DNA of 64,000 nt from NCBI GenBank assembly GCA_026874595.1, contig CM049315.1:11098664-11162663 (forward strand). The letters run 5' to 3'. The stretch comes from Sipunculus nudus (Eukaryota > Annelida > Sipuncula > Golfingiida > Sipunculidae). This document shows positions 1-32,955 of this stretch, in pieces. Under the pieces are notes generated by a model, which was not told where the DNA came from, ran no database searches, and saw only the letters and a list, made by a program, of their open reading frames with translations. The position numbers were made by a program, and so were the translations under genes. How positions within the stretch are numbered: position 1 is the stretch's first letter; every line of letters starts with the position of its first letter.

Positions 1-391
1 AGTAGGTGAAGAGACAGTTTGTAGTATTTGCCCACGGCAGAAGACTTAGAGGCCAGTATGTCAATGTGTCCTTACCTGAAGTAGGTGAAGAGACAGTTTG
101 TAGTATTTGCCCACGGCAGAAGACTTAGAGGCCAGTATGTCAATGTGTCCTTACCTGAAGTACTTGAAGAGACAGATTGTATTATTTGCCCACGGCAGAA
201 GACTTAGAGGCCAGTATGTCAGTGTCTTTGTTGCCTCACCTTAAGTACGTAGATGAAGAGACAGATTTTTAGGATTTGTCCACGGCAGAAGACTTAGATG
301 CCAGTGTGTCTGTGTCTGTGTGGCCTTACCTGAAGTAGGTGAATAGACAGATTTTAGGATTTGCCCACGGTAGAAGACTTAGAGGCCAGTC
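1..391 (-). repeat. 79-bp tandem repeat copying an exon end and its splice donor
   Basis: Copies begin at 1, 80, 159, 244 and 334. The first two are 79 bp and nearly identical, the next two are about 85 and 90 bp, and the last is partial and lies inside the coding exon. Read on the minus strand, each unit holds the last ~57 bases of the CNBD2-like exon plus the start of its intron. Intact GT donors occur at 75/74, 154/153, 239/238 and 329/328. The contexts are CTTCAG|GTAAGG three times and CTTAAG|GTGAGG once. The repeat is probably a local tandem duplication across an exon-intron boundary that has started to diverge. The left edge of the window cuts the array, so its full length is unknown. 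Confidence 0.9.
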
Positions 392-559
392 CTGCAGCAT
401 GTCGACCTGCCGCAGGAAGCGGATGTGCTCCGGTTCCCGGTTCTTCTCGATGTGCATGAAGATGTCGATGAAGTCCTCTCGGCCAACCGCCAGTAGCTCC
501 ACATCGTCCTTACACGTCACAGTCGCCGTCCGCTTCCCACCATGCATCAGGGCTAGCTC
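330..559 (-). CDS. CNBD2: CNBD2-like exon: second half of CNB domain and following linker
   Basis: Exon of 230 nt. The acceptor ACCCAG precedes 559 and the donor GTAAGG follows 330. It starts in phase 0 and ends after two bases of a codon. It opens with ELALMHGGKRTATV, completing the FGELAL phosphate-binding cassette begun in the exon at 1614. The cassette Glu and the Arg before T-A, which contact the ribose and phosphate of cAMP in CNB domains, are both present. The last beta strands (ELLAVGREDF) and a C-helix region follow. The tail resembles the linker towards a second CNB-like region in CNBD2 proteins. The first in-frame stop lies just past the donor, so the exon must be spliced. The downstream exons lie beyond the left edge of the window. 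Confidence 0.88.
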
Positions 560-1613: not shown

Positions 1614-1702
1614 CCCAAAACTGTTGCCTTTACCGAGAAAAGCCACTGTCCGTCCGTACGGCTCACCTGTCTTTGGATCCTTGTCCATCACCGTCACAAC
1701 AG
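1614..1702 (-). CDS. CNBD2: CNBD2-like exon: CNB-domain core beta strands
   Basis: Exon of 89 nt. The acceptor TTCTAG precedes 1702 and the donor GTAAGT follows 1614. It begins with two bases that complete a codon from the exon at 4401 (G plus CT gives Ala) and ends in phase 0. It encodes a beta-hairpin segment ending FLGKGNSFG, the standard run into the phosphate-binding cassette. Joining it to the next exon gives SFG-ELAL, the CNB signature, which confirms both splice sites. The loop DPKTGEPYG before the cassette is longer than in PKA regulatory subunits; long loops here are common in CNBD2-type proteins. Confidence 0.9.
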
Positions 1703-32750: not shown

Positions 32751-32955
32751 CGATCCCCTATGTGGCCACAACTAGGATATGCACGTTTGTGTTCTTGAAT
32801 CGCGTGGATGATGCTAAGTGTGTCCTTAGGGGTTTATTTTTCAAAATTTACCACGATCCCCTCTGTGGCCACGACTAGGATATGCACGTTTATTTTCTTG
32901 AACTGTCGGGGATGATGTAGTGTCCTTAGGGGTTTATTATTCAACATTTTACGTA
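32751..32955 (+). repeat. 103-bp tandem duplication
   Basis: Two adjacent copies start at 32751 and 32854 with CGATCCCCT. They share TGTGGCCAC and ACTAGGATATGCACGTTT, and end GTGTCCTTAGGGGTTTATT. The copies differ at a modest number of sites. Confidence 0.9.

Follow-up and report, generated by a model that had tools for sequence, protein, structure and literature searches.

The exon-intron boundary at the 3' end of one exon (E2) of a Sipunculus nudus gene has been multiplied into a tandem array of 33 units, each with its own copy of the 5' splice site, and a second array multiplying a 3' splice site lies two introns further on in the same gene. We consider it most likely that the array at E2 is a near-neutral minisatellite of the kind called 'mirages' in amphioxus, with splicing probably proceeding via the donor attached to the exon (junction 330/329), a reading made from genomic sequence. 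The stretch that was analysed (the window) spans 64 kb at C10:11098664-11162663, C10 being the contig that holds it, and genome searches covered 1.43 Gb. Literature searches, which were not aimed at the species, found nothing published on the gene or the locus.

Tandem Repeats Finder, run on the 64-kb window, placed a tandem array with a period of 79 and 4.7 copies at positions 1-390. An earlier note on this DNA had described its unit as the 3' end of an exon plus its donor and early intron, repeated in gene sense, and had proposed reading the sequence to the left of the window. When this was done, the array proved to run past the left edge to C10:11096425, and 33 units of just this composition were found after the exon's own copy (copy 0, the last 61 nt of E2 at 390..330), which gives 34 donors in total. 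Unit length ranges from 67 to 90 bp and is often 79 bp, and each unit consists of a piece derived from the exon, 61 nt long in copy 0, followed by a donor and usually ~18 nt of intron. Read in gene sense, on the minus strand, the order is E2 (559..330), the donor at 330/329, the 33 units, 1,067 nt of further intron, and then the acceptor of exon E3 (TATCAG/GCGCGG, at C10:11095358, 1,067 nt beyond the last array donor), so that 2,567 of the intron's 3,634 nt belong to the array. Its last unit passes into unique intron sequence, as is expected if the duplication spanned an exon-intron junction.

The part of the array inside the window (1..329, minus strand) contains units whose first intron base lies at 329, 239, 154 and 75. 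These four positions had been named as donors before and are real, but the exon junction itself falls at 330/329 and not at 329/328. The exon-proximal donor (324..332, minus strand) reads CAG/GTAAGG, as do those of copy 2 (149..157, minus strand; score 11.45) and copy 3 (70..78, minus strand; score 11.45), and copy 1 has AAG/GTGAGG (234..242, minus strand; score 11.17). Donor positions were found with a pattern requiring GTRA; since their spacing never exceeds 90 nt, no unit with a broken donor was missed by this pattern. Elsewhere in the window, at 32751-32949, Tandem Repeats Finder also listed a 103-bp unit in two copies that match at 86%.

The units show the turnover expected of a minisatellite. 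Three consecutive 79-bp stretches (starts 154, 75 and -4) are fully identical, and 26 of the 561 aligned unit pairs are identical as well, with a mean difference of 10% and a maximum of 20.5% among pairs. The array is known from a single assembly, which would leave room for a mis-assembled expansion. We regard this as hardly credible, because units that differ by up to 20.5% and follow one another in an irregular order of 67-, 71-, 79- and 84/85-bp types would not arise from simple read stutter, and because the array sits inside a 79.6-Mb contig. The genome search gave no second place for the array DNA among its best-scored candidates.

The host gene probably encodes a cyclic-nucleotide-binding protein, which may resemble CNBD2-type proteins. 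Coding exon E1 (1614..1702, minus strand, 89 nt, from its open reading frame) ends in the donor GGG/GTAAGT (score 9.52), and its ...GKGNSFG joins the ELALMHGG of E2 in phase 0. E2 (330..559, minus strand, 230 nt, from its open reading frame and Pfam) starts in phase 0 and ends in phase 2. Alone, it matched the cyclic-nucleotide-binding domain PF00027 with an E-value of 2.3e-05 and 24.7 bits (Pfam cut-off 27.5), and the joined E1, E2 and E3 reached 52.9 bits, with the best stretch within E1-E2. E3 (minus strand) continues E2 in phase: joined in phase 2, the two read FTYF-R-RGVVMCRDSNKTDWIYIIKSG. E4 (C10:11092157-11092056, minus strand) ends KDVF/GTAAGT, and E5 (from C10:11090877, minus strand) begins GLVHIAF.... 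A single open frame runs across the joined E2-E5, for which PF00027 gave 40.2 bits in two stretches, the best one inside E2.

Homology support for E3 is thin. It had no Pfam match of its own, and the piece of E5 had only a chance-level one (CadC_C1, E 0.051). Among solved structures, PKG 1 gave a weak alignment (E 0.13) that spans the E2/E3 junction, with a fish-egg lectin ranking higher (E 0.073). With the middle stretch removed, E2-E5 hit domains of PKA and of PKG, the best at E 0.0032 and PKG 1 at E 0.0044 over positions 2-118 of the 130-residue query. The modelled E3 donor is weak (CCG/GTGTCA, 1.71) and the end of E5 was guessed (TCT/GTAGGT, 2.77), so that the gene model away from the arrays is provisional. 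The open frame, the phases and the weak homology agree on the two junctions that bear arrays, and the phase-2 join of E2 and E3, the open frame across E2-E5 and the weak PKG 1 alignment identify copy 0 as the coding copy.

The other copies have no coding role, which is ruled out by indels and stops: 13 of the 33 units have an indel in their exon-derived part, and compared with copy 0 these parts contain 20 distinct non-synonymous variants, of which two are stops, besides 9 synonymous ones. At two synonymous sites copy 0 is distinct from the array (33/33 and 32/33 units differ from it), so homogenisation within the array does not extend to the coding copy.

Every copy had been said to keep its donor, and GTRA is indeed present at all 34, with the full CAG/GTAAGG at 26. 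On a Shapiro-Senapathy type matrix that is, like the acceptor matrix, of vertebrate origin, 31/34 donors scored at least 11 and the remaining three 7.24, 9.13 and 7.67. Sites scoring at least 9 numbered 32 in the 2.6-kb array and 0 in the other 1,061 nt of the intron; the next 13.7 kb downstream had 5, and the minus strand of the whole 64-kb window had 18, including the four array donors that lie in it. Donors of this strength exceed what chance would give: in 200 kb of the same genome, a donor of at least 11.4 was present in 21 of 4000 random 79-mers, and one abutting an acceptor of at least 8.8 in 1 of 4000. The best consensus donor in other tandem arrays of this 200-kb sample (19 Tandem Repeats Finder rows of period at least 20 and at least 2.8 copies, equal to ~15 separate arrays) was 7.68, versus 11.45 here. 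Strong acceptor-like sites were not rare in these comparison arrays, with scores of at least 9.5 in three rows. One sampled stretch, C4:25000001-25010000, was entirely satellite (35-bp units, ~283 copies).

Such a row of strong donors could in principle act as a length-variable splicing switch, as had been proposed, in which regulated use of distal donors yields a truncated or NMD-degraded transcript in a share set by copy number. This reading could appeal to the 31 donors that score at least 11 and to the shorter distance between the distal ones and the downstream acceptor. Turri et al. are said to have described in 1995 a human IFI6 minisatellite with multiple splice donors. According to a citing source, two downstream repeat units of the human IFI6 (6-16, G1P3) minisatellite reportedly act as donors and yield isoforms (PMC4526556), which is a human precedent for a repeat unit bearing a splice donor. 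Here, unlike in IFI6 as described there, a retained unit would mean an immediate stop: every unit starts GTRA after ...TTC AG, which creates the codons AGG TRA at 34/34 junctions, and repeat donors giving translated isoforms were not found at any of them. Because the intron is in phase 2 and the donors are GTRA, this stop arises whatever the number or length of units kept, and it stood in the same place when 1, 2, 3, 5, 10, 20 or 33 units were retained. The expectation that retention brings in stops was correct; the unit length of 79, although indeed not a multiple of 3, plays no part in it. With one stop codon shared by all retention products, distal donors alone would give truncation at the end of E2 and no graded protein series.

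The conservation of the units also speaks against a switch. From an alignment of the 34 units we derived a FastTree tree, on which parsimony changes were counted per site, ignoring recombination among units. The nine donor positions had 8 changes against 5.9 expected (mean 0.66 per site). As few changes as in the donor, or fewer, were counted in 55 of the 71 nine-base windows, and as few in 84% of 100,000 random nine-site sets. Selection on the donors finds no support here: they are no more conserved than other parts of the unit, so there is no sign of selection for a switch. Three positions (G-1, G+1 and T+2) are invariant in all 34 donors, which is unsurprising at a mean of 0.66 changes per site and may reflect weak constraint. 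Folding of 316 nt of the array revealed no extra stability relative to shuffled sequences (z 0.03; 50/100 shuffles as stable). In amphioxus, Adh3 data and globin RT-PCR suggest that boundary arrays leave regular splicing undisturbed (PMC3087553), and mRNA is reportedly unaltered by them (PMC3087553, PMC3902484). Altogether, we consider a regulatory switch very unlikely, and the neutral minisatellite, which had been offered as its alternative, is the best fit.

The array has a further property that the donors do not reveal, namely an acceptor-grade AG before most units, which is a new detail. In 24/33 copies the AG before the array donor equals or exceeds the true intron acceptor (8.72) in score, and a pyrimidine-rich stretch precedes most of them, giving the AG/GT with pyrimidine-rich tract that characterizes recursive splice sites. 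The median score of 8.86 corresponds to the 99th percentile of the 3375 AGs in the window on the vertebrate acceptor matrix. CTAAAA or CTACAA, candidate branch sites picked out by eye, lie ~20-30 nt upstream of many of these AGs. Each such copy could, judging from its sequence, be a mini-intron. One hypothesis is therefore a self-erasing intron, in which head-to-tail GT-AG units of 67-90 nt would be removed singly, in blocks or recursively without leaving a scar, and in which the product of a distal donor could be spliced again to normal mRNA; such behavior would be compatible with neutrality. The near-identical CAG/GTAAGG on both sides of most units is in line with it, and a block of retained units begins with GT and has AG as its last two bases at the exon junction. 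So is a published two-copy analogue, in which tandem duplication of an AGGT-containing segment creates an intron (PMC4974935). In that source (covering the Rogers model, ATP2A1 and 24-bp repeats in fission yeast), the copies gain a GT start and an AG end and become spliceable, and this model is our basis for expecting removable units. The present array resembles that case in its tandem AG/GT copies with a GT start and an AG end that are potentially removable, but differs from it in that an existing exon-intron junction was duplicated and an existing intron lengthened; no new intron position need therefore have arisen.

To follow such splicing, we considered a toy simulation with 1000 runs of random legal GT-AG splices, in which all pairs were weighted equally and internal acceptors were always present. 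With 33 units, normal mRNA was the outcome in 97%, 87% and 76% of runs for a minimum intron of 60, 75 and 80 nt, respectively, and in 71%, 62% and 53% for minima of 86, 91 and 160 nt. With 4 units, it was reached in 100% (75-nt minimum) and 83% (80-nt minimum) of runs. At the 60-nt minimum, the failures are attributable to copy 11 alone, which ends in CCG and has no AG. Although 33 units mostly end in normal mRNA in this toy model, the outcome depends on copy number (83% with 4 units versus 76% with 33 at the 80-nt minimum), and the equal weights and the internal acceptors in every run bear on these figures. Both score matrices are vertebrate ones. In addition, the AG is weaker than the true acceptor in 9/33 copies (with scores as low as 2.96, 4.26 and 5.71 in copies 1, 7 and 2), and the AG of copy 0 likewise scores 8.86, which means that the acceptor likeness came with the E2 codons and was inherited, not necessarily evolved. 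We hold self-erasure to be rather unlikely. Recursive splicing at ratchet points also relies on a juxtaposed acceptor and donor, AG/GT; those of Drosophila are features of long introns and depend on a cryptic RS-exon (PMC8605326), whereas here up to 32 putative points would follow one another at 67-90 nt.

The second array occupies the E4-E5 intron (C10:11092055-11090878, 1,178 nt), to the left of the window, where ~31-bp units at C10:11090859-11091377 and 11091654-11091783 multiply the 3' splice site. These units have a T-rich tract and usually TAG/GG, and the last of them, which by eye also matches the first ~20 bases of E5, forms the E5 acceptor. Among 20 pattern-listed upstream AG sites, 11 outscore this authentic acceptor (6.25). 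Reading from the upstream AGs into E5 in phase 0 meets a stop in 19/20 cases; use of the remaining AG would lengthen the exon by 31 nt and change the reading frame, and no stop occurs over the 114 bases that were examined. The correct splice site thus lies closest to the exon in either array. A third repeat, considered as a possible further boundary array (C10:11094912-11095011; 31 bp, 3.2 copies), ~200 nt past the proposed end of E3, has no strong donor in its consensus, where the best donor scored 1.37 and the best acceptor-like site 6.98.

These features parallel the amphioxus mirages, which are described as tandem, minisatellite-like duplications of the exon-intron boundary that can affect either end of an exon, with many units bearing AG/GT, unstable in length and subject to concerted turnover within an array (PMC3087553). 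The genes concerned there are Adh3 and the globins BflGb6 and BflGb9 (PMC3087553), to which PMC3902484 adds repeats in TnC and PGBD5. In Sipunculus, too, the units span an exon-intron boundary (a donor array at E2 and, with exon-start likeness judged by eye, an acceptor array at E5), the authentic boundary is the exon-attached copy 0 with all other copies between it and the acceptor at C10:11095358, and minisatellite turnover has left identical units while copy 0 stands apart at two sites. Shared with amphioxus, as far as described, are the boundary-spanning units, the presence of both 5' and 3' boundary arrays, the AG/GT and the turnover. Unlike BflGb6, for which 6 and 3 copies in two haplotypes are described, there are 33 copies here, read from the DNA of one assembly; moreover, compared with the mirages described, donor and acceptor arrays occur here in one gene and all array donors are GTRA. 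Anatomically, both arrays are mirages, and the one at E2 is real, large and probably neutral. The amphioxus arrays of both kinds and the second boundary array in this gene lend support, by analogy, to a mirage at E2.

Under this mirage reading, a tandem duplication would have spanned the 3' end of the exon and its 5' splice site together with ~18 bases at the start of the intron, and the duplicated segment would later have grown to 33 copies by ordinary repeat turnover. Donor scores are nearly alike, and no feature of donor sequence singles out the proximal site. We infer that the spliceosome probably picks the 330/329 donor, which gives the shortest exon (230 nt), and bypasses the other 33; a transcript retaining units would stop at once.

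If the units do erase themselves, almost any order of splicing would lead to the same mRNA and copy number would be free to drift. Since site strength in the array is near-constant while distance grows, RNA data from this one gene could tell apart exon definition, recursive removal and co-transcriptional choice on a first-come basis. A gene with both a donor and an acceptor array offers a natural setting in which to study the spliceosome's choice between near-identical sites, and, as a large example that combines the two boundary types, it extends a phenomenon known from the literature consulted mainly in amphioxus.
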